From: an uncultured Clostridia bacterium
GTDB taxonomy: Bacteria > Bacillota > Clostridia > Oscillospirales > Ruminococcaceae
Length of the DNA stretch: 64,000 nucleotides
Assembly (NCBI GenBank): GCA_947389015.1
Contig: CANDVA010000012.1
Location: 1-64,000 of the forward strand
Direction of reading: 5' to 3'
Positions 29,363 through 44,892 of the stretch are shown here, one piece after another. Both the position numbers and the translations under genes were made by a program. Position 1 is the first letter of the stretch. Every line of letters begins with the position of its first letter. Under the pieces are notes generated by a model. That model had not been told where the DNA came from. It made no database searches and worked only from the letters and a program-made list of their open reading frames with translations.

Positions 29363-30700
29363 TCAGTTGCCGCGGTATTCGGAAAGCTCGATCTCAATAT
29401 CCATTTTTCTCACTCTTCCGAGAGAATCCGCTCTTGCGACCGTTACGGTAATGGTATCGCCGGGTTTTTTGCCCGCGAGTATCTCGCTTATGGTCGTTGT
29501 GTTGCCGTCCTCGTCAAACACGTATTCGCCGTCGATCTCGGTTATCGTATCACCTACAACAAGACCGCTCTTAGCGACTGCCATATCCTGATTTATCTCC
29601 GCTACAAGCAGACCCGCCGTCATTCCGCGGAACGAAGCCGTATACTCGTTAATGGGATTGTAGGAAATACCGAGAACCGCGCGTCCCGAAACATAGCCCT
29701 TTGTGATAAGATCGTCGATTACGTCGCGAGCCTCGTTTATAGTTATCGCAAAGCCTAAGCTTTCCGCGTAATCGTATACGTATTTGGAGTTTACAACGCC
29801 GACTACCTCGCCGTACATATTGAATAATGCGCCGCCGGAGTTACCGCTGTTGATGCCCGCGTCGGTCTGGATAGAGGACAGCCCGCGCGCGCTGTCGGAT
29901 ATCTGTCGGTTAAGACCCGAAACAACGCCCTTGGAGACGGAGGTCTCAAGACCGAGAGGATTTCCTATCGCTATAACGTCGTCACCGAGGTGGAGCTGGT
30001 TGGAGTCGCCGAGAACTGCCGCGGGCAGGTCGCTTGCCTTTATTTTCAGCACTGCGAGATCGGTGTCCGCGTCCGTACCGACAAGCTCCGCGTCGTAGGT
30101 CTCGGATTCGGAAATACCCGTTTTCGGGTCGGTATTGTTGACCTTAACGGTGTACGAATCGGCGTCCTCAACAACGTGGTTATTCGTCACGATATAGCCG
30201 TCCTTTGAGATGATGATGCCGCTTGCCGAGCCGTAGAGTGTGCTCTTGCCGCGTGAGCTGACAAACACCTCAATGTATACGATACTATCCTGAACCGCCT
30301 TTACAAGGTCTCTGGTATACATATATGTTCCGTCGGAGTTGTATTCGACCTCGTCGCTGATGTTGTGCTTTATGGCAACGTCTTGCTGAAGATCGTTCAG
30401 CGTAGGCGCCGAGTTGATATTGTCCGAATTTACGGGAGAGATGTGATCGCTTGGATTACTGCGGTCATTGCTGCCCGATACTACCGCGGAATTCATGGAC
30501 TTACCCGCGATATACGCGCCGCCGAATCCCGCACCGCCGCCAACAATAGCGACCGCCGCGATCATCGCCATGACCTTGAGCGTAGCGCCCTTGTGTTTTT
30601 TTGCGGGACGATTAGGCTGAACAGGCACTGCCTGAGCCTCGGGCGGTGTATTCTCGGTGGAAAATTTCTGTACATTATCAAATTCGTTAAAGTCATTCAT
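29363..30700 (-). CDS. htrA: HtrA/DegP-like membrane-bound serine protease
   Basis: A quality-control protease that cleaves misfolded exported proteins. Of 445 residues, the first 40 are cytoplasmic and end in KKHKG. One membrane helix follows (about 41-62), then a low-complexity linker, a trypsin-like domain with His175 (VTNNHVVEDA), Asp214 (DTDLAVLKI) and Ser288 (GINSGNSGGALFN), and one PDZ domain (about 345-430, RGMTAGLLVAEIN...). All three catalytic residues are present. AGGAGG lies before the ATG. It is alone in its transcription unit and ends at a clear terminator. Confidence 0.95.
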   Translation of the reverse strand: MNDFNEFDNVQKFSTENTPPEAQAVPVQPNRPAKKHKGATLKVMAMIAAVAIVGGGAGFGGAYIAGKSMNSAVVSGSNDRSNPSDHISPVNSDNINSAPTLNDLQQDVAIKHNISDEVEYNSDGTYMYTRDLVKAVQDSIVYIEVFVSSRGKSTLYGSASGIIISKDGYIVTNNHVVEDADSYTVKVNNTDPKTGISESETYDAELVGTDADTDLAVLKIKASDLPAAVLGDSNQLHLGDDVIAIGNPLGLETSVSKGVVSGLNRQISDSARGLSSIQTDAGINSGNSGGALFNMYGEVVGVVNSKYVYDYAESLGFAITINEARDVIDDLITKGYVSGRAVLGISYNPINEYTASFRGMTAGLLVAEINQDMAVAKSGLVVGDTITEIDGEYVFDEDGNTTTISEILAGKKPGDTITVTVARADSLGRVRKMDIEIELSEYRGN

Positions 30701-30828
30701 AATAATTCCTCCTAGTAAAACAGACTATTCTGTTGATTTCCTGTTATGCCTAAATTATAAATCCCGATTGTGTATAATGCGTGAAGTTATTTTGAATAAA
30801 TAATTAAAAGGAAATGATTTTGATTTCC

Positions 30829-32190
30829 TTATTTTCCTTGTTTGACGATCTTGTCCACCGCCAGCGCAAGCGCACATTCCAGCCGTTTTCTCTGCAGCTC
30901 GCAGGAGAGCTTGTGTGGTTTGCGGCAGTCGCCCTCGTAGATGAACGAATTCGCGTTGCAGCCGCCCGAGCAGTAGAATTTCGCCCAGCATTCCGCACAG
31001 CCGCCCTTGGAGTAGAGGTGAGTTTTCGCGAAATAGGTCTTGATTTCGTCGCTGAACGTGCCATCGTTTAGGTTGCCCATTTTCCATTTGTCTATTCCCA
31101 CAAACTGGTGGCACGGGTAAATATCTCCATGCGGGTCGACGGCTACGTAATCGTTTCCGCACCCGCATCCGCGCAGTCTTTTTATCGCGCACGGTCCCTG
31201 ATCGAGGTCGACCATAAAATGGAAAAAGTTGAACTTTTTCTCGGTGCGGTTTGCCATGACCTCGCAAAGACGATCGTACTCCTCAAAGATCCGCGGCAAG
31301 TCTGCCTCGGTGAGCGCATACGGCTCCTTTTCATCGGTAACGACGGGCTCGGCGGAAAGCTGCTCAAAGCCCAGCTCGCGCAGATGCAGCACATCCTCTG
31401 TAAAGTCGAGATTGTATTTCGTGAACGTAGCGCGGACATAGAAATCCTTATCGCCGCGCTGAGACACCAGCTTCTGAAATTTCGGCACGATAACGTCATA
31501 CGCGCTTTTTCCGTTAAGCGTCTTGCGGATACGGTCGGTAGTCTCGCGCCGACCGTCCAGCGAAAGTACGACGTTCACCATTTCGCGGTTTATGTAGTCG
31601 ATCTTCTCATCGTCCAGCAGCACGCCGTTAGTCGTGATGGTAAAGCGGAAATTCTTGTTGTGCTGCTTTTCTATCGAACGCGCGTAGTTCACCGTCTCGA
31701 CCACCGTATCCCAAGCCATGAGCGGTTCGCCGCCGAAGAAATCCAACTCGATATTCTCACGGTTCGCCGATTTTTCAATAAGGAAGTCTATCGCTTTCTT
31801 TCCCGTTTCGGGAGACATTATACAGCGCTCGCCTCCGAAGTCGCCCGTCTGTGCAAAGCAGTACTCGCAGCGCAGATTGCAGTCGTGCGCGACGTTAAGG
31901 CACATTGACTTTACGGGGCTTTTTACCATTGTCTCCGAATACTTCTGATAGTCGTCATCTGCGAATAAAGAGTCATCTTTATACAAAGAGTATAATTCCT
32001 TATAGGTCTCGAGGACGTCCTCCTCGGGGTAAGCGGATAACTTTTCGGGCAGCTCCGCGGGCATTTCCTCCGTCAGCGGAGCGGCGATATGGTCGAGCAT
32101 ATCAAACGCGCAGTCGTCAAACACGTGAACGCCGTTGCTGTCCGCGTCAAGTACGATATTATATCCCAATTGTTTAAACTTATGAACCAT
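30829..32190 (-). CDS. scfB: SCIFF peptide maturase (radical SAM/SPASM)
   Basis: This enzyme makes thioether cross-links in the SCIFF peptide (see 32296-32439). Of 453 residues, the first 90 are a peptide-binding (RRE-like) part. The radical SAM cluster is CNLRCEYCF with AHD before it (Cys104, 108, 111), followed by FFGGEPLM. A SPASM domain with two more iron-sulfur clusters fills the C-terminal third (CGCGNDYVAVDPHGDIYPCHQF, then GGCAECWAKFYCSGGC). All expected cysteines are present. GAGGTTG precedes the ATG. It lies 105 bases downstream of its peptide gene with two hairpins between. Confidence 0.96.
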   Translation of the reverse strand: MVHKFKQLGYNIVLDADSNGVHVFDDCAFDMLDHIAAPLTEEMPAELPEKLSAYPEEDVLETYKELYSLYKDDSLFADDDYQKYSETMVKSPVKSMCLNVAHDCNLRCEYCFAQTGDFGGERCIMSPETGKKAIDFLIEKSANRENIELDFFGGEPLMAWDTVVETVNYARSIEKQHNKNFRFTITTNGVLLDDEKIDYINREMVNVVLSLDGRRETTDRIRKTLNGKSAYDVIVPKFQKLVSQRGDKDFYVRATFTKYNLDFTEDVLHLRELGFEQLSAEPVVTDEKEPYALTEADLPRIFEEYDRLCEVMANRTEKKFNFFHFMVDLDQGPCAIKRLRGCGCGNDYVAVDPHGDIYPCHQFVGIDKWKMGNLNDGTFSDEIKTYFAKTHLYSKGGCAECWAKFYCSGGCNANSFIYEGDCRKPHKLSCELQRKRLECALALAVDKIVKQGK

Positions 32191-37189: not shown

Positions 37190-37218
37190 TTTACAATTTA
37201 AAAAAAATATATTATAAT
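37190..37218 (+). promoter_or_regulatory. Promoter of the exporter-helicase operon
   Basis: TTTACA (37190-37195), a 17-base A/T-rich spacer and a perfect TATAAT (37213-37218), about 70 bases before the first start at 37287. Confidence 0.8.
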
Positions 37219-37286
37219 AATTAAGATAAGGATAAATAAGCGGTTAAATTACAAATTAAAAACCTGCTTTTTGATCGGGAGGATAT

Positions 37287-39050
37287 ATGTTCAGGCTTGC
37301 AAAATATCTGAAGGAATTTAAACTTAACGTGACCGTGGGTCCCGTGTGCAAATTTACGGAGGCGGTATTTGAGCTTATCGTGCCGCTGGTAATGGCAGAG
37401 ATAATCGACGTGGGCATTAAGAACGGAGATACGGATTATATCCGAAAGCACGGGATAACGCTGATTATTTTGGCGGTGTGCGGACTTACGTTCGCGCTTA
37501 TCTGCCAATATATGGCAAGCGTGGCGTCGCAGGGCGTGGGAACGCGCCTGCGCGACGATCTGTACAAGCACATCAATACGCTGTCGTATAAGGAGCTTGA
37601 CAAGCTCGGCACTGCGGCGCTTGTCACGCGCATATCCAACGACGTAAATCAGGTACAGACCGCAGTCGCCATGCTGATACGTCTGGTGGTGAGAGCTCCG
37701 TTTCTGGTAATAGGCGCGACGGTTATGGCGTTCACGATATCGGCGCGGCTGTCATTGATATTTCTGGGAGCAATGGCGGCGATAGTCGCAATAATGTACC
37801 CGATAATGCGCGTTACGGTAAAGCTGTTCAAGAAACAGCAGAGGTCGCTGGACGGAATTTCGCGCATAACAAGGGAGAATTTGTCGGGAGTGCGCGTTGT
37901 AAGAGCGTTCTCGCGGCAGGAGCACGAAACGGAGCGCTTTGAGGAGACCGCCGAGGAGTACCGCAAATTCGCGGTCAAGGCGGGACGGATAAACGCGCTG
38001 CTCAACCCCGCGATATTCGTGGCGGTGAACGTCGCGTATCTGCTGATAGTATGGCTTGGCGGCGGCTTTGCGGACACGGGTATCGACGGTATGACGCAGG
38101 GCAAGGTGATAGCTCTCGTCAATTATATGACGCAGATATCGCTCGCGCTGGTGGTAGTAGCTAACCTCGTAACTATATTCACAAAGGCGGCGGCGTCCGC
38201 GGCGCGCATCAATGAGATTTTCGATATGAAGCCCTCGGTAGTTGGCGCAATGACTTCTCCCAAGCAGGATGAAAACGCTCCCGCGATAGAATTCGACAAC
38301 GTAAGCTTTTCCTATGTAGGAGGAGAAAATTCGTTAGAGAATATAACATTCTCGCTCGGCAGGGGAGAGACGCTCGGAATAATCGGCGGTACGGGCTCTG
38401 GTAAGTCAACCCTCGTCAATCTGCTGTGCCGCTTCTACGACTGCGACAGCGGCGCGGTAAAAATTAACGGCGCGGACGTGCGCGACTATCCTACCGAGGA
38501 GCTGAGACGGCTCGTCGGCATAGTGCCGCAGAAAACCGAATTGCTAAGCGGTACTCTACGAGATAATATGATCCTCGGAAGAACGGATATCTCCGATGAC
38601 CGCATACAGAAAGCTCTTGAAACAGCGCAGGCTAAGGACTTCACGGACGATCTCGACGGCGGTCTCGACGCGCGGATACTGCAGGGCGGAAAGAATCTCT
38701 CGGGCGGGCAAAAGCAACGCCTGACGATAGCGAGAGCTGTCGCACAGGATCCCGAGATACTGATACTCGACGACAGCTCGTCCGCGCTTGATTACGCGAC
38801 GGACGCGAACCTGCGCAAGGCGCTGAAAACGCTGCCAATAACGTGCGTTATCGTGTCGCAGAGAGCGAATTCTATACGTCACGCGGACAAGATAATCGTG
38901 CTTGACGACGGCGAGGCTGTCGGCATAGGTACTCACGCGCAGTTACTGAAAAACTGCGAGGTATATCACGAGATCTGTCTTACGCAGTACACCGAGGAGG
39001 AGCTGCTTGAACAGGAGAACGAGAATGGCATGGAAGGGGGCGCTGTATAA
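37287..39050 (+). CDS. Heterodimeric ABC exporter, subunit with degenerate ATP site
   Basis: A 587-residue half transporter: six helices (to about residue 300), then an ATPase domain with GGTGSGKSTLVNLL, signature LSGGQKQRLTIARA and Walker B ILILDDSSSALD. The residue after the Walker B Asp is Asp and not the usual catalytic Glu, as in the degenerate half of pairs like TM287/288. GGGAGG precedes the ATG. It overlaps the second subunit by TAATG. It exports a lipid, peptide or drug-like substrate; which one is not shown. As the first gene of the operon, it is close to a promoter at 37190. Confidence 0.94.
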   Translation: MFRLAKYLKEFKLNVTVGPVCKFTEAVFELIVPLVMAEIIDVGIKNGDTDYIRKHGITLIILAVCGLTFALICQYMASVASQGVGTRLRDDLYKHINTLSYKELDKLGTAALVTRISNDVNQVQTAVAMLIRLVVRAPFLVIGATVMAFTISARLSLIFLGAMAAIVAIMYPIMRVTVKLFKKQQRSLDGISRITRENLSGVRVVRAFSRQEHETERFEETAEEYRKFAVKAGRINALLNPAIFVAVNVAYLLIVWLGGGFADTGIDGMTQGKVIALVNYMTQISLALVVVANLVTIFTKAAASAARINEIFDMKPSVVGAMTSPKQDENAPAIEFDNVSFSYVGGENSLENITFSLGRGETLGIIGGTGSGKSTLVNLLCRFYDCDSGAVKINGADVRDYPTEELRRLVGIVPQKTELLSGTLRDNMILGRTDISDDRIQKALETAQAKDFTDDLDGGLDARILQGGKNLSGGQKQRLTIARAVAQDPEILILDDSSSALDYATDANLRKALKTLPITCVIVSQRANSIRHADKIIVLDDGEAVGIGTHAQLLKNCEVYHEICLTQYTEEELLEQENENGMEGGAV

Positions 39051-40801
39051 TGGATAGCAAACGATTGACGAAAAAAGGCGCTCTCGGGCGTATCCTCCGC
39101 TATATGAAAGGGCAGATACCGCTTGTGATGCTGGCGATAGCGTGCGCGGCGGGCAGCGTCCTGCTGTCGCTGTACACCACTGTGCTGATAGGCAGGGCGG
39201 TGGACTGTATCGTAGATGGCAATGTGAATTTTGAGCGTATGGCGCCAATTCTGATAACGATAGCGGCGATAATTCCCGCAGTCGCGCTGCTTCAATGGCT
39301 GATGTACTTCTCGACCAACAAGATAACCCATAAGACCGTTAAGCAGCTCCGCGCGGATATCTTCACGCATTTGCAGCACCTGCCGCTCAGCTTTATCGAC
39401 GCGAATTCCCACGGTGACATTATCAGCCGCGTAGTCAACGACGTGGACGCTGTGAGCGAGGGTTTATTGCAGGGTTTTCAGCAGCTTTTCACGGGCGTTG
39501 TGACGATAATCGGCACGCTTGTATTTATGGCAAGACTCAACTGGCAGATAACGCTTGTGGTAGTCTGCATTACGCCGCTTTCGTTCGCGGTAGCGGCGAT
39601 AATCTCCAAGCTCTGTTTCAATAAGTTTAAGGAGCAGTCCGCGATAAAGGGCGAGCTTACGGGCTATATTGACGAGCATATCGGCGGTCAGCGGCTCGTT
39701 AAGGCATTCGGGTTTGAAAAGACCGCCGAAGCGCAGTTCGGCGAGATCAACGAGCGGCTGAACGTCTGCGGGCGCATAGCACAGTTTTATTCAGCGCTGA
39801 CAAATCCCTGCACCCGTTTCGTGAACTCTCTCGTATACGCGGGAGTAGGCGTATTCGGCGCGCTGAACGCAGTCAAGGCGGTTTCGGGCGGCTTCACGGT
39901 CGGCGATCTGAGCTGTTTCTTACAGTACGCTAACCAGTACACCAAGCCGTTCAACGAGATATCGGGCGTTGTTACCGAGCTTCAGAACGCGTTGGCTTCG
40001 GCTTCGAGAATATTTGCGCTTATCGACGAGCGGTCCGAAAGCTCTGACGCGGGTAAAAAGGTACTCGAAAAAAGCGACGGGCGCGTTCAGATCAAGAACG
40101 TATCGTTCTCCTATGTTCCCGAAAAGCCTCTTATCGAGAACCTGAACCTTGACGTTAAGAGCGGTCAGCATATCGCGATAGTAGGACCCACAGGCTGCGG
40201 AAAGACCACGCTGATAAACCTGTTAATGAGGTTTTACGACGTTGTGAGCGGTGAAATAAAAGTCAGCGGATTGCCCGTCAAGGACATCACGCGCAACAGT
40301 CTGCGCGGCAATTTTGGTATCGTATTGCAGGAGACGTGGGTTTTCCGCGGCACGGTACGCGACAATATCGCCTACGGCAAGCCCGACGCGACCTTGGAGG
40401 AGATTATCGCCGCCGCCAAAGCAGCTCACGCGCACAGCTTCATAAAGCGCCTGCCGGAGGGCTACGATACGGTGATAACCAACGACGCGGAGCTGTCGCA
40501 GGGACAGCGGCAGCTGCTGTCGATTGCGAGGATAATGCTCTCGCTGCCGTCAATGCTGATACTGGACGAGGCTACGTCCTCGATAGATACGCGCACAGAA
40601 ATGAAGATACAGAACGCGTTCGACAAGCTGATGCAGGGGCGCACGAGTTTTGTAGTCGCGCACAGGCTCTCGACTATTCGTGAGGCTGACTGCATATTGG
40701 TAATGAAGTCGGGGCATATCGTCGAGCAGGGCACGCACACCGAGCTTATGGAAAAGGACGGCTTTTACGCGGAGCTTATACGTTCAAGACAAGAGGGGTA
40801 G
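39050..40801 (+). CDS. Heterodimeric ABC exporter, catalytically intact subunit
   Basis: The partner half transporter, 583 residues. Six membrane helices are followed by an ATPase with GPTGCGKTTLINLL, Q loop VLQETWVF, a signature LSQGQRQLLSIAR (a common variant) and Walker B MLILDEATSSID with the catalytic Glu, and a switch His (VVAHRLST). With the first subunit, it should form one active and one degenerate ATP site. It ends 19 bases before the BrxC/BrxD-type ATPase gene, with no terminator between, which ties the exporter to the next three genes. Confidence 0.95.
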   Translation: MDSKRLTKKGALGRILRYMKGQIPLVMLAIACAAGSVLLSLYTTVLIGRAVDCIVDGNVNFERMAPILITIAAIIPAVALLQWLMYFSTNKITHKTVKQLRADIFTHLQHLPLSFIDANSHGDIISRVVNDVDAVSEGLLQGFQQLFTGVVTIIGTLVFMARLNWQITLVVVCITPLSFAVAAIISKLCFNKFKEQSAIKGELTGYIDEHIGGQRLVKAFGFEKTAEAQFGEINERLNVCGRIAQFYSALTNPCTRFVNSLVYAGVGVFGALNAVKAVSGGFTVGDLSCFLQYANQYTKPFNEISGVVTELQNALASASRIFALIDERSESSDAGKKVLEKSDGRVQIKNVSFSYVPEKPLIENLNLDVKSGQHIAIVGPTGCGKTTLINLLMRFYDVVSGEIKVSGLPVKDITRNSLRGNFGIVLQETWVFRGTVRDNIAYGKPDATLEEIIAAAKAAHAHSFIKRLPEGYDTVITNDAELSQGQRQLLSIARIMLSLPSMLILDEATSSIDTRTEMKIQNAFDKLMQGRTSFVVAHRLSTIREADCILVMKSGHIVEQGTHTELMEKDGFYAELIRSRQEG

Positions 40802-40820
40802 ATCGGAAAGGTTGGTAAAG

Positions 40821-42134
40821 ATGCAAATTCCTAAACGAATAGCCGCGGGACTTATCAACGCGCTGAAGGGCGGCGTTGTGCCGCGCACGGGACTTGGTTA
40901 TATCGCAGTCGGGCGTACCGACGAAATCAATGCGCTCCTGCATGACGTAGCGATAGCCGAGGACGGTGGCGCGTTTTTTCGCTTTATCGTCGGTAAATTC
41001 GGCAGCGGTAAGAGCTTCCTGATACAGACCATGCGTCAGCACGTAATGGACAGGGGCTTTGCCTCCGCCGACGCGGATTTGTCTCCTGAGCGCAGACTTA
41101 TGGGCACAAAAGGGCAGGGGCTGGCTACCTATCGCGAGCTTATGCGTTCGCTTTCCGTAAAGGCTAAGCCCGACGGCGGTGCGCTGTCGCTGATACTTGA
41201 AAAGTGGATAAACGGCGTTCGAGGCGAGGTAATAGCGGACGGTATGACTCCCGACAACGCATTTTTCGACGCCGAGGTAGAAAAGCGTATCTACGCGAAA
41301 ATAAACGGCTTGGAGAATATGGTCCACGGCTTTGATTTTGCCGCTGTGATAATCACGTATTACCGCGCCTTCCGTGACGGCAACGACGAGCGGCAAAGCA
41401 AAGCCGTCCGCTGGTTGCGCGGCGAGTACTCCACCAGGACCGAGGCAAAGCATGACTTGGGTATAAACGTAATTATCTCCGACGATAACTGGTACGATTA
41501 TATCAAGCTGATGACGGCGTTCCTCGTGAACGCGGGCTACAAGGGTCTGGTCATTATGATAGACGAGCTTGTCAACATAATGAAGATATCCAATTCGATA
41601 ACGCGTCAGAACAATTACGAGAAAATACTGATGATGTATAACGACGTAATGCAGGGCAAAGCCTCGTATCTCGGGATAATTATGGGCGGCACTCCGCAGT
41701 GCGTCGAGGATACGCGGCGCGGTGTGTTCAGCTACGAGGCACTGCGCTCGCGGCTTGAGCGCGGACGTTACGCGACCGACGAAACGCACGATATGTTAGC
41801 GCCGATAATCAGGCTCAATCCGCTTTCTTACGAGGAGCTGACTGTATTGATGGAGAAGCTCTCCGAGATACACGCGCTGCTGTATGATTACGAGCCGAAA
41901 ATAACGCTCGAGGACAGGATATATTTCGTTAAGGCTGAGTTTGAGCGCGTAGGAGCGCAGACAAACGTCACGCCGCGCGAGATGATACGCGACTTTATAG
42001 AGCTGCTGAATATCGCCTATCAGCACCCCGAAAAAACTCTTCCGCAGCTTATGGGCGAGGATGAGTTCAAGTTCGCGGAGGGCGAGGGCGATAATTCCGA
42101 AAATGCGGACGGCTTTGAGGATTTTGATTTGTGA
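40821..42134 (+). CDS. BrxC/BrxD-type P-loop ATPase (DUF2791)
   Basis: 437 residues from the ATG at 40821, with AAAGG upstream; a TTG at 40812 is less likely. The protein has the plan of the BrxC/BrxD family (formerly DUF2791), an AAA-like ATPase of BREX phage defence. Counting from the TTG, Walker A is IVGKFGSGKSFLIQ (about 59-72) and Walker B is GLVIMIDELVNI (Asp251, Glu252). MGGTPQCVEDTRRGVFSYEALRSRL follows as a sensor region. The acidic tail (EFKFAEGEGDNSENADGFEDFDL) is not part of the family. BrxD in type 2 BREX is found with an Lhr-like helicase, which also follows here after a GNAT. No PglX, PglZ, PglW or other BREX gene is seen. Confidence 0.82.
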   Translation: MQIPKRIAAGLINALKGGVVPRTGLGYIAVGRTDEINALLHDVAIAEDGGAFFRFIVGKFGSGKSFLIQTMRQHVMDRGFASADADLSPERRLMGTKGQGLATYRELMRSLSVKAKPDGGALSLILEKWINGVRGEVIADGMTPDNAFFDAEVEKRIYAKINGLENMVHGFDFAAVIITYYRAFRDGNDERQSKAVRWLRGEYSTRTEAKHDLGINVIISDDNWYDYIKLMTAFLVNAGYKGLVIMIDELVNIMKISNSITRQNNYEKILMMYNDVMQGKASYLGIIMGGTPQCVEDTRRGVFSYEALRSRLERGRYATDETHDMLAPIIRLNPLSYEELTVLMEKLSEIHALLYDYEPKITLEDRIYFVKAEFERVGAQTNVTPREMIRDFIELLNIAYQHPEKTLPQLMGEDEFKFAEGEGDNSENADGFEDFDL

Positions 42135-42140
42135 GGGCAT

Positions 42141-42593
42141 ATGGAAATTATTAATTATTTTGACTGCAATAACAAACAGCATTGGCTTGCCGAGATCAAA
42201 AAAAGCGATTGGCGCGCGGCTCCCACGCTCGCGGGATTTCTGGAGAGCGGAACGTTCTTTGAAATGCTGGGCGACGGCGTTTTGCTGCTCCTTACGGACG
42301 GTGACAAGCTGGTTTCGTTTTTAACGTTCGCGCGGAATGACTGTATCGATGATAAGTCGCTGTACCCGTGGATTGGCTTTGTGTTTACATTTCCCGAGTA
42401 CCGCGGACACAGATACGTCGGACGGCTGATAGAGCGCTGCGAGGAAATTGCTCGTGAAAAAAAAGTCAGAAACGTCTACGTTTGCACCGATCACATAGGG
42501 CTTTACGAGAAATACGGTTATTCGTATCTCGAAAATCGCGTCGACATCTACGGAGACGACAGCAGGATTTACATAAAGAAAATAATGGACTGA
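42141..42593 (+). CDS. GNAT-family N-acetyltransferase
   Basis: 150 residues. The acetyl-CoA loop is FPEYRGHRYVGRLIERCEEIAR, followed by KKVRNVYVCTDHIGLYEKYGYSYLENR, a typical GNAT end. The substrate is unknown. It lies 6 bases after the ATPase and 4 bases before the helicase, so it is made with them. It could modify the exported molecule, a host protein or a toxin-like product, but nothing in the sequence decides this. The family also occurs often as a passenger. Confidence 0.85.
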   Translation: MEIINYFDCNNKQHWLAEIKKSDWRAAPTLAGFLESGTFFEMLGDGVLLLLTDGDKLVSFLTFARNDCIDDKSLYPWIGFVFTFPEYRGHRYVGRLIERCEEIAREKKVRNVYVCTDHIGLYEKYGYSYLENRVDIYGDDSRIYIKKIMD

Positions 42594-42597
42594 AACA

Positions 42598-44838
42598 ATG
42601 GGACAGAATAACGTTTTTTACAGGCTCGCGCCGTTCATACAGGATTATATTTACCGCAATAAGTGGGAGGAGCTGCGTGATATTCAGGTTGCCGCCGCCG
42701 AGATAATCTTCGATACCGACGACAATCTGCTGCTCACCTCGGGCACGGCTAGCGGAAAGACCGAAGCCGCGTTTCTCCCCGTGATAACGCAGCTCTGGGA
42801 GAACCCTGCGGGCAGCGTGGGAGCGCTATATATTTCGCCATTGAAAGCACTGATAAACGATCAGTTCGAGCGACTTGAGGAGCTTCTCGAGGAAGCGGAC
42901 ATACCGGTCACGAAATGGCACGGCGACGCTTCACCCTCCGCGAAAAAGAAGCTTGTCAAAAATCCGCGCGGCATAATGCAGACCACTCCAGAAAGTCTGG
43001 AGAGCTTGCTTATGCGCAACAGCTCCAACGCCTACCGACTGTTTTCCGACCTGCGTTTCGTCATTATCGACGAGGTGCATTATTTTATGGACAACGACCG
43101 CGGCTTGCAGCTCCTGTCTATATTGGAGCGACTTCAGCGGATTATCGGCTTTATTCCGCGGAGAATAGGTCTTTCCGCGACCCTCGGCGACTGCACCAAT
43201 GCCGAGAAATGGCTCTGTATGGGTACGGATGTGCCATGCAATACTCCAAAAGTTCATGATAAAAACCGCAGGGTGCGCTTGTCGGTACGGTTTTTTCCGT
43301 TAGCCGAAAAGATACCTAATTCCGACAGCAAAACGCTTCTCGAGCATTATTATGAATACCTCTACGAGAGTACTCACGCCAAGCGGTGCATACTATTCTC
43401 CAACAGCAAGGGCGAGGTGGAGGAGAACATTGCGCATATGAAACGGCTGTCCGAGAAAAATCATGGCAGCGACTGTTATCTTGTCCACCACGCGAATATT
43501 TCTCCCGCGCTGCGCGAATTCGCCGAAAAGCGAATGAAATCGAGCGAGCTGCCCGTATGTACGGGAGCGACGGTGACGCTCGAGCTTGGTATCGACCTCG
43601 GACATCTGGAGCGAATAGTTCAGACGGGTTGTCCGCTTACGGTTTCCGGTCTGGTACAGCGTCTCGGACGAACGGGACGTCGCGGCGACGCGATAGGCGA
43701 AATGCGCTTCGCGTTCCGCTGGGACATGAGCCTGCCGCCGAATACGTTCTATAAAGAGGTCAACTGGGACCTTGTGATGTGCGCGGCAATGATACTTTTG
43801 TATACTCAAGAAAAATGGGTCGAGCCGATGTATCTTCCCAAACTGCCGTATAGCCTGTTGTATCATCAGACCATGTCGATACTCGCGGCAAGCGGCTCGG
43901 TTCAGCCAAAGGAGCTTGCGCGGCAGGTGCTCACGCTGGCGGTTTTCCGATACGTTTCCAAGGAGGATTATCTGCTTCTTCTGCGTCATATGCTTGAGAA
44001 CGGACAGCTTGAGCGCGGCGAGGACGGGCTGATGATCGGCGAAAAGGGCGAAGCTGCAGTGAACAATTACGAGTTTCTGGCGGTGTTTTCCGTTCCCGTT
44101 GAGTACACGGTGCGGAGCAGCGCGGGAAACGGGGCGTCGGCGGAGATAATCGGCACGGTGCAGAACCCGTTTCCGCCGAAATCGCAGTTTGCGCTCGCGG
44201 GGCAGGCATGGGAGGTCACGGAGCTTGACAAGAAGCAGCAGACGATATACGTCAAGAGGATAGAGGGCATTTCCGCTAATACGTGGACGGATACGGGCAA
44301 CGAGTACGTTCACACCAAGGTGATGAAGAAGATGCTGGAAGTTCTCCGCAGCGACGAGCAGTACGCGTTCCTCGACGAGAGCGCCCGCAAGCGTCTCGAC
44401 GATATACGCCGTCTATGCAGAAACGCGTCAATGAGCGGCGAGACGATAAGCGACTGCGAGCTTGCGAGCGGCACGGTATCCGAGGGAGAACGTATCGTTA
44501 TACCGCTCTCCGAGACGGTATTCGCGGTGTTTCCGTTTCTGGGAACCCGCGGCACAATGGCTCTGCTTTACGCGCTTCGCGAGCGCGGATTTCAAGCGAA
44601 TGTATGGCTCCAGCGTTACATTCCCGTATGTATTGAGGTGCAGACCGATATGGGAAGGGAAGCGCTTACCGCCGCGCTGAACGAGATAAAGGCGGACGGC
44701 GCGGACAAGTATTCGTTCAGAATTCCCGAAAACTGCGAGATAGCGGGGAAGTTCAACGACTATATCCCGCGGCAATTATTGATAAAGCAGTATATTGAGG
44801 ACTATCTCGATACTGACGAACTGAGATTAATGGAATAA
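42598..44838 (+). CDS. Lhr-like DEAD/DEVH-box helicase (BrxHI-like)
   Basis: 746 residues. Motifs in order: Walker A LLTSGTASGKTEAAFLP (about 45-61), SPLKALINDQ (motif Ia), TTPESLESLL, DEVH in VIIDEVHYFMD (158-161), SATLGD (motif III, 193-198), and QRLGRTGRRGD (motif VI, 354-364). This pattern is that of the Lhr group of superfamily 2. The C-terminal 350 residues are a domain of unknown type. The BREX type 2 BrxHI protein is of this kind and pairs with BrxD. It ends the five-gene operon, directly before a strong terminator. An ordinary DNA-repair helicase is the alternative reading. Confidence 0.88.
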   Translation: MGQNNVFYRLAPFIQDYIYRNKWEELRDIQVAAAEIIFDTDDNLLLTSGTASGKTEAAFLPVITQLWENPAGSVGALYISPLKALINDQFERLEELLEEADIPVTKWHGDASPSAKKKLVKNPRGIMQTTPESLESLLMRNSSNAYRLFSDLRFVIIDEVHYFMDNDRGLQLLSILERLQRIIGFIPRRIGLSATLGDCTNAEKWLCMGTDVPCNTPKVHDKNRRVRLSVRFFPLAEKIPNSDSKTLLEHYYEYLYESTHAKRCILFSNSKGEVEENIAHMKRLSEKNHGSDCYLVHHANISPALREFAEKRMKSSELPVCTGATVTLELGIDLGHLERIVQTGCPLTVSGLVQRLGRTGRRGDAIGEMRFAFRWDMSLPPNTFYKEVNWDLVMCAAMILLYTQEKWVEPMYLPKLPYSLLYHQTMSILAASGSVQPKELARQVLTLAVFRYVSKEDYLLLLRHMLENGQLERGEDGLMIGEKGEAAVNNYEFLAVFSVPVEYTVRSSAGNGASAEIIGTVQNPFPPKSQFALAGQAWEVTELDKKQQTIYVKRIEGISANTWTDTGNEYVHTKVMKKMLEVLRSDEQYAFLDESARKRLDDIRRLCRNASMSGETISDCELASGTVSEGERIVIPLSETVFAVFPFLGTRGTMALLYALRERGFQANVWLQRYIPVCIEVQTDMGREALTAALNEIKADGADKYSFRIPENCEIAGKFNDYIPRQLLIKQYIEDYLDTDELRLME

Positions 44839-44843
44839 AAAAT

Positions 44844-44867
44844 GCCGCTGTTCAAACGAACAGCGGC
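44844..44867. terminator. Bidirectional terminator between the helicase and tuf
   Basis: A perfect 10-base stem GCCGCTGTTC with loop AAAC, followed by ATTTTGTTTTG on the plus strand and preceded by AAAAAA, which gives a T-run on the minus strand. It serves both convergent genes. Confidence 0.88.
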
Positions 44868-44892
44868 ACATTTTGTTTTGTTAATCGTTAAA

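Follow-up and report, generated by a model that had tools for sequence, protein, structure and literature searches.

Defence systems are usually recognised by the clustering of their genes and are regarded as mobile. One of them, Shango, was reportedly first described by Millman et al. in 2022. It includes the TerB protein SngA, and in PAO1 contiguous Shango gave 10–100-fold protection against many, though not all, phages (PMC10250203). AbiD/AbiF proteins belong to the HEPN family (PMC3710099), and the title of a paper on the AbiF of C. difficile calls it phage-encoded with RNA-based regulation (PMC12373285). Here we describe an ATPase gene and a helicase gene in a 64,000-nucleotide stretch (the window; contig C12) from an uncultured bacterium of the Ruminococcaceae, where a first-pass annotation had placed a five-gene operon joining an ATP-binding cassette (ABC) exporter to a pair resembling bacteriophage exclusion (BREX) proteins. 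The pair, SngB and SngC, very probably belongs to a complete Shango machine whose genes are scattered over the genome. Related bacteria mostly carry Shango as one compact block, whereas this genus of gut bacteria keeps scattered, inherited genes.

Identity of the Shango proteins

A PADLOC search of the ATPase and the helicase, as the first-pass annotation had proposed, returned SngB and SngC as the best models. The ATPase matched SngB (PDLC03959) at 3.9e-176 and 584 bits, compared to 170.5 bits for the BrxD model, and the helicase matched SngC (PDLC03960) at 1.3e-218 and 726 bits, compared to 387 bits for the BrxHI model. The ATPase scored 172.2 bits against the NCBIfam BrxD equivalog NF033438, under the cut-off of 350, and the helicase scored 200.7 bits against the ligase-associated DEXH equivalog TIGR04121, under the cut-off of 850. 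Judged by these profile scores, the two proteins are SngB and SngC of Shango and not BREX components. The assignment of the ATPase to the BrxC/BrxD family (PF10923, E value 1.7e-161) and the Lhr-like nature of the helicase were borne out by the family matches. Of the suggestion that the pair is a reduced or separate defence system, the separateness from BREX stands and the reduced BREX does not, as the pair corresponds to SngB–SngC of Shango.

A TerB_N search of the own genome gave a single match, on contig C13. This SngA (G000:C13:15914-17809, 632 amino acids) matched the PADLOC SngA model (PDLC03958) at 5.3e-53, with TerB_N and TerB_C both above their Pfam cut-offs. SngA, SngB and SngC each had one match in the own genome. 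An alignment showed the SngC motif residues G49TASGKT55, D158E159-H161 and QRLGR-GR to be invariant in 14 rows. Fold comparison revealed SngB to be of the ORC/Cdc6-type AAA+ fold, nearest to Cdc6/Orc1; a Foldseek search alone was weak, with four matches at E <0.001, all to RdrA of RADAR. The predicted structure of SngC (predicted local distance difference test score 45.7) was too poor for use.

Distribution and linkage

The genus set comprised 43 genomes, of which 27 had a completeness of 90% or more and contamination no higher than 5%. The order sample held 297 genomes, of which three were of the genus and 294 outside it, and the family sample held 148, again with three of the genus. Matches within 3 kb were counted as linked, and the SngA–SngB count outside the genus also required the same strand. 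SngA was found in 43/43 genus genomes (in broken pieces in G001), SngB in 37/43 and SngC in 39/43; three of the four SngC misses (G013, G016 and G028) were at contig ends beside SngB. SngA lay within 3 kb of SngB in none of the 37 genus genomes with both, compared to 60/62 genomes outside the genus, and within 3 kb of SngC in 0/39. SngB and SngC were linked in 24/34 genus genomes (gaps of −1 to 2309 bp) and were more than 3 kb apart or on separate contigs in the other ten, for some of which contig breaks may be responsible. The SngA of G001 (contig C57, 5427–7335) runs across several frames with a stop, representing either decay or assembly error. The sngC of G041 is near rplU and obg (L189:5419-11137), on a different contig from sngB.

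TerB_N was found in 65 and SngB in 69 genomes of the order sample. Outside the genus the counts were 62 and 66, with both in 62 genomes and TerB_N without SngB in none; one TerB_N match was below the Pfam cut-off. In the family sample SngB (19), TerB_N (19) and SngC (18) were present in the same genomes, and the SngB of G100 was a fragment of 32 residues at the end of a contig, with no SngC match in that genome. At most family loci sngA and sngB share a few overlapping bases and sngC usually comes next in the same orientation, although some loci carry inserts (4.4 kb in L168); in G057 and G133 SngA or SngC was on another contig. Scattering outside the genus was seen in only two of the 62 order genomes (G057 and G280). 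The contiguous cassettes of g99 and g118 had conserved upstream flanks in 4/4 fetched loci each; stable residence thus occurs in other genera too. RecQ follows SngC in three of the four fetched g99 loci, those reaching that far. At one of these (L195:1129-5198) the RecQ gene, encoding HRDC and RQC domains, has a 4-base overlap with the 3′-end of sngC, a possible Shango–RecQ operon.

Inheritance, selection and co-variation

For each gene, an unrooted tree set the genus sequences (32 SngA, 33 SngB and 31 SngC) apart by a branch with 100% bootstrap support; the tree program flagged long branches among the family rows. Mantel comparisons with mean EngA/GpsA/PlsY distances, on subsets of the 43 genomes with fetched loci, gave r values of 0.78 for SngA (n = 18), 0.88 for SngB (n = 17), 0.87 for SngC (n = 16) and 0.52 for AbiD (n = 18), with 0/5000 permutations for each gene. 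Within a four-genome clade that includes the own genome, the ratio of nonsynonymous to synonymous substitution rates (dN/dS) was 0.03–0.04 for SngB, 0.04–0.08 for SngC and 0.14–0.22 for SngA, compared to 0.02–0.03 for EngA. Partial Mantel values given the core genes, with G042 included, were 0.72 for SngA–SngB (n = 17), 0.80 for SngA–SngC (n = 16) and 0.65 for SngB–SngC (n = 17), each with 0/1000 permutations; those of h189, a gene of the SngA cluster, were 0.05, 0.04 and 0.24 against SngA, SngB and SngC (n = 15, 15 and 14). Within these subsets, distances for the scattered genes follow those of the core genes, selection on the genes is purifying, and their co-variation exceeds what the core signal accounts for.

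The sngA cluster and AbiD

The own-genome sngA is the last gene of a der(EngA)-plsY-gpsA-AbiD-sngA cluster that was kept in 18 of 20 fetched relatives; one of the exceptions (L090) ends past AbiD and the other (L103, from G042) has SngA alone. SngA evolves fast, with a mean identity of 0.48. The AbiD of the cluster matched PADLOC AbiD and PF07751, and the R and H of its R-X4-H motif were invariant in 20/20. It was present in 43/43 genus genomes and within 3 kb of SngA in 40, with <120 bp between the match ends in 30 of those 40; the match has one internal stop in G006, G007 and G008. AbiD had no match in the 18 family loci.

An RNA antitoxin beside AbiD was rejected, as no Rfam RNA was found there in the three loci scanned (L004, L088 and L093). 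An apparent AbiD–SngA fusion in G012 was also rejected because its 910-amino acid frame runs through an assembly N stretch. AbiD was not accepted as a proven fourth component: its partial Mantel value with SngA was 0.72 without G042 but 0.32 with it (24/1000 permutations), and co-variation was also seen between AbiD and the cluster neighbour h189 (0.50). In G042, AbiD remains with gpsA and a divergent SngA is 23 kb away, making this genome (L103:7854-9809 and L186:6796-7668) a natural test case for the coupling of SngA with AbiD, SngB and SngC.

Additional genes were seen at these loci. In the own genome a PF04439 gene (streptomycin adenylyltransferase family, adenylyltransferase-type) is located between gpsA and AbiD (L004:10728-11618); among the 20 fetched relatives it was present in the three nearest only. 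Downstream of the own sngA (L004:3222-7654) are genes for a protein with a kinase domain and a 740-amino acid secreted-looking protein without a Pfam match, neither of which had a match in the 20 fetched sngA loci. A T-box leader (Rfam RF00230) was found downstream of the cluster in G035 (L088:11910-12202).

The window locus

The features of the window locus are listed in Table 1. The five open reading frames (ORFs), all on the forward strand with gaps of −1, 19, 6 and 4, agree with the first-pass annotation, as does the promoter-like site. The terminator proposed at the 3′-end is present, with a stem of 11–12 bp rather than the 10 bp given, and a scan of the region confirmed that no terminator-like site is seen at the exporter–SngB junction.

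Table 1. Features of the exporter–sngB–sngC locus in the window
Feature	Position	Strand	Basis
ABC half-exporter 1 (ABC1)	37287..39050	+	Pfam ABC_membrane + ABC_tran; best PDB match 3qf4_A, TM287
ABC half-exporter 2 (ABC2), partner of exporter 1	39050..40801	+	Pfam ABC_membrane + ABC_tran, synteny; Walker B intact
SngB, predicted ORC/Cdc6-like AAA+ ATPase of Shango	40821..42134	+	Pfam BrxC_BrxD PF10923, E 1.7e-161
GNAT acetyltransferase, variable cargo separating sngB and sngC	42141..42593	+	PF00583
SngC, predicted Lhr-like superfamily 2 (SF2) helicase of Shango	42598..44838	+	Pfam DEAD + Helicase_C; PADLOC SngC
Sigma-70-type promoter-like site TTTACA-17-TATAAT	37190..37218	+	11/12 consensus matches; best + strand candidate for the gene run
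Bidirectional intrinsic-terminator-like stem, 11–12 bp	44842..44869	both	between sngC and convergent tuf

The sngB start was taken as the ATG at 40821, with an in-frame TTG at 40812. The promoter-like site is within a divergent gap and adjoins an 11/12 promoter-like site on the reverse strand (37181–37153). Neither kind of signal was commoner in the region than in shuffled sequence (12 promoter-like sites against a shuffle mean of 10.5, and 13 terminator-like sites against 13.2), which leaves gene spacing as the main ground for the operon claim. The downstream genes on the opposite strand are, as we take them to be from their sequences and not from a family search, rpoBC, rpsL, rpsG, fusA and tuf. 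The setting is ordinary chromosome; other families matched in the window include RecG, FakA-like, HPr kinase and RapZ. The GC content of ABC1, ABC2, SngB and SngC is 0.53–0.54 and that of tuf, fusA and rpoBC 0.53–0.55; the GNAT, at 0.47, is below the rest of the gene run. Elsewhere in the window, a trypsin-like/PDZ protease adjoins a radical SAM (SPASM) protein (29363–32190, reverse strand).

The exporter and the GNAT

The change from Glu to Asp after Walker B that had been reported in ABC1 is visible (ILILDDSSSALD, LDDSSS), and ABC2 is intact (MLILDEATSSID, LDEATS). With the Walker B glutamate degenerate in one half and intact in the other, the exporter has the pattern of a heterodimeric ABC exporter, for which the change is expected. 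TM287, the best PDB match of ABC1, is the subunit of TM287/288 bearing such a change.

The five-gene order, the recurrence of which had been put forward as a check, does not recur in relatives, whereas the SngB–SngC pair does. As for the exporter, which might never have been found beside the pair in relatives, an orthologue adjoins SngB in 3/20 fetched relatives, and these are confined to the own four-genome clade. In two others (G005 and G008) the ABC pair upstream of SngB on the same strand is unrelated, the two exporter types sharing ~26–35% identity and not being orthologous. The remaining 15 had no exporter among up to four nearest upstream same-strand ORFs; three of them (G041, G034 and G030) have an ABC gene 3.4–3.7 kb upstream on the opposite strand, and for two (L070 and L077) the upstream sequence is shorter than 3 kb.

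Within the own clade the exporter and SngB are separated by 19, 688, 307 and 132 bp of unrelated sequence, including a small ORF in G029. In G004 a nucleotidyltransferase (PF18765/PF01909) and a HepT-like protein (PF01934), forming a MntA/HepT-type toxin–antitoxin, are encoded between the exporter and sngB (L064:9571-10205). The interval between GNAT and SngC contains a small ORF in G004 and, in G029, an ORF that we presume from its sequence to be CPBP-like. A GNAT homologue was found in two of the 20 fetched SngB loci (G004 and G029), and also beside sngC in G017. The order exporter, SngB, GNAT, SngC was present in 2/20 relatives (G004 and G029), both with inserted sequence or genes. We conclude that the site collects small genes. 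The GNAT would be one such passenger and the exporter is most probably another, a neighbour and not part of Shango, although G005 and G008 are two separate exporter cases. The proposal that exporter and GNAT handle a small molecule within the system is improbable: the orthologous exporter adjoins SngB only in the own clade, and the cargo varies.

Discussion

The contrast between 0/37 and 60/62, together with retention, selection and co-variation, carries the most weight. Retention, core-like distances, purifying selection and co-variation together look like an intact, vertically inherited, unlinked Shango. That the genes are near-universal, core-like, selected and co-varying despite their separate loci argues that SngA, SngB and SngC are one working unit, because linkage alone cannot explain the co-variation of separate loci. 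The identity, presence, linkage, inheritance pattern, selection, co-variation and intact motifs were all observed in the genomes analysed.

For biochemistry, a defence role in this host and loading order, we infer the following from the protein families. SngB would assemble on or near DNA and load or gate SngC, and SngA would couple the two to a signal and/or effector step, so that the three might act jointly on abnormal or foreign DNA, for example replicating phage DNA. The set itself is present in almost every genome of the genus and looks vertically inherited.

Several points weigh against a complete, scattered Shango. SngB had no match in G007 (92% complete), though SngA and SngC were found there, nor in G017 (100% complete), where the contig starts just upstream of GNAT–SngC. 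All 35 named relatives, many of them labelled Oscillospiraceae or Clostridia, are metagenome-assembled genomes and some apparent splits may be assembly breaks, an account countered by G009, whose SngA is >100 kb from the ends of a 545-kb contig that carries no SngB. The co-occurrence P values ignore phylogeny. Without G042, the partial Mantel values fall to 0.39 for SngA–SngB and 0.41 for SngB–SngC (SngA–SngC 0.73) and those of h189 against SngA, SngB and SngC rise to 0.30, 0.15 and 0.41; SngA–SngC co-variation thus holds up well, and the other two correlations depend largely on a single genome. Finally, the own SngA is ~23–33% identical to SngA of the family cassettes, compared to 47–62% for SngB and 39–47% for SngC (local matches, excluding the 32-residue G100 fragment; G094 gave no SngA match), so a change of role is possible.

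A reduced or diverged type 2 BREX (BrxD plus BrxHI) would draw on the same two protein families, which travel as a dyad in that system (PMC12839542), and weaker PADLOC matches to both exist. This identification is scarcely credible and was rejected, because the SngB and SngC models score far higher and the BrxD equivalog reached 172 of 350 bits; additionally, a TerB_N partner exists in the genome. It is also improbable that all five genes work as a single defence system, the exporter and GNAT handling a small molecule made or needed by the ATPase–helicase pair. The tight spacing without a terminator-like site at the exporter–SngB junction, the exporter–SngB order kept across the four-genome clade and the separate, unrelated same-strand ABC pair upstream of SngB in G005 and G008 would agree with it. 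However, 15/20 relatives lack an exporter among the nearest same-strand upstream ORFs, and upstream of SngB are instead, for example, a GATase/SIS protein in G038 and an opposite-strand tRNA-synthetase gene in G041. The two exporter types are non-orthologous, the gaps vary from 19 to 688 bp with unrelated contents, and the promoter-like site in the G029 gap is weak (9/12) and no better than chance. With ABC1 as the sole query, a match was found in 3/18 family loci (L168, L179 and L185), ~2–4.5 kb from the cassette.

Two further readings accept the pair as Shango and differ on what it does. The Shango of the genus may have been domesticated, moving out of phage defence to serve genome maintenance (e.g. 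at stalled forks) with SngA retuned, which we regard as possible but doubtful. It would fit the near-universal, single-copy genes with core-gene-like distances and a GC of 0.53–0.54, and the unlinked loci, which adjoin der/gpsA, adjoin tuf in the own genome and certain relatives, or lie close to rplU-obg in G041. In g99, too, RecQ comes after the contiguous A-B-C cassette (3/4 loci) and the upstream flanks are conserved (4/4). The g118 cassettes, however, likewise have conserved upstream flanks (4/4 fetched) and no adjoining RecQ, so stable residence alone does not show changed function, and the fast evolution of SngA fits conflict with phages. Rather unlikely, on our assessment, is a resident four-part machine in which SngB–SngC at one or two core loci would survey DNA and SngA would alarm the AbiD-type HEPN RNase. 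If true, a mobile cassette would have become a dispersed, core 'innate' surveillance system, which tools requiring clustered genes would miss.

Scattered Shango, the reading we prefer, suggests that cluster-based finders undercount this system, and the genus offers a natural setting in which to ask whether immune machinery can turn housekeeping. Among the matches listed in the literature searched, including the available portions of PMC10250203, PMC11096173, PMC12278908, PMC10952713 and PMC13356809, unlinked Shango was unreported; subscription literature was mostly outside this search.

Comparison with known systems

The exporter resembles TM287/TM288 in the best PDB match of ABC1 and in having one degenerate and one intact ATP site, and differs in adjoining SngB, in one clade. 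The cluster AbiD, like other AbiD/AbiF (Abi_2) proteins, matches PADLOC AbiD and PF07751 and keeps R-X4-H; unlike these, it is in 43/43 genomes and within 3 kb of SngA in 40/43. It also differs from C. difficile AbiF, to which the title of PMC12373285 assigns RNA-based regulation, in having no Rfam RNA beside it in the three loci scanned. Like the BrxD–BrxHI dyad of type 2 BREX, the window pair joins genes for an AAA+ ATPase and an Lhr-like helicase that are homologous in the two systems (PMC12839542). Its BREX-model scores are, however, far under both the BrxD cut-off and the SngB/SngC scores, and it is tied to TerB_N by co-occurrence.

The closest system is Shango itself. All three proteins are present with the best PADLOC models, TerB_N and TerB_C are found in SngA, the ATPase and helicase motifs are intact, and the three-gene make-up is that of P. 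aeruginosa PA14 (PMC10250203). Shango was described there as one operon of three genes, as is also seen across the taxonomic order, an arrangement not seen here: SngA is unlinked from SngB in 37/37 genus genomes with both, SngB and SngC are apart in 10/34 (some perhaps through contig breaks), nearly every genus genome carries the system, and AbiD is beside SngA. As the three genes were not found in one operon (0/37), the system was classed as an unlinked variant and not as a standard Shango operon. It is a known system in a new arrangement, an unlinked, core-like Shango.

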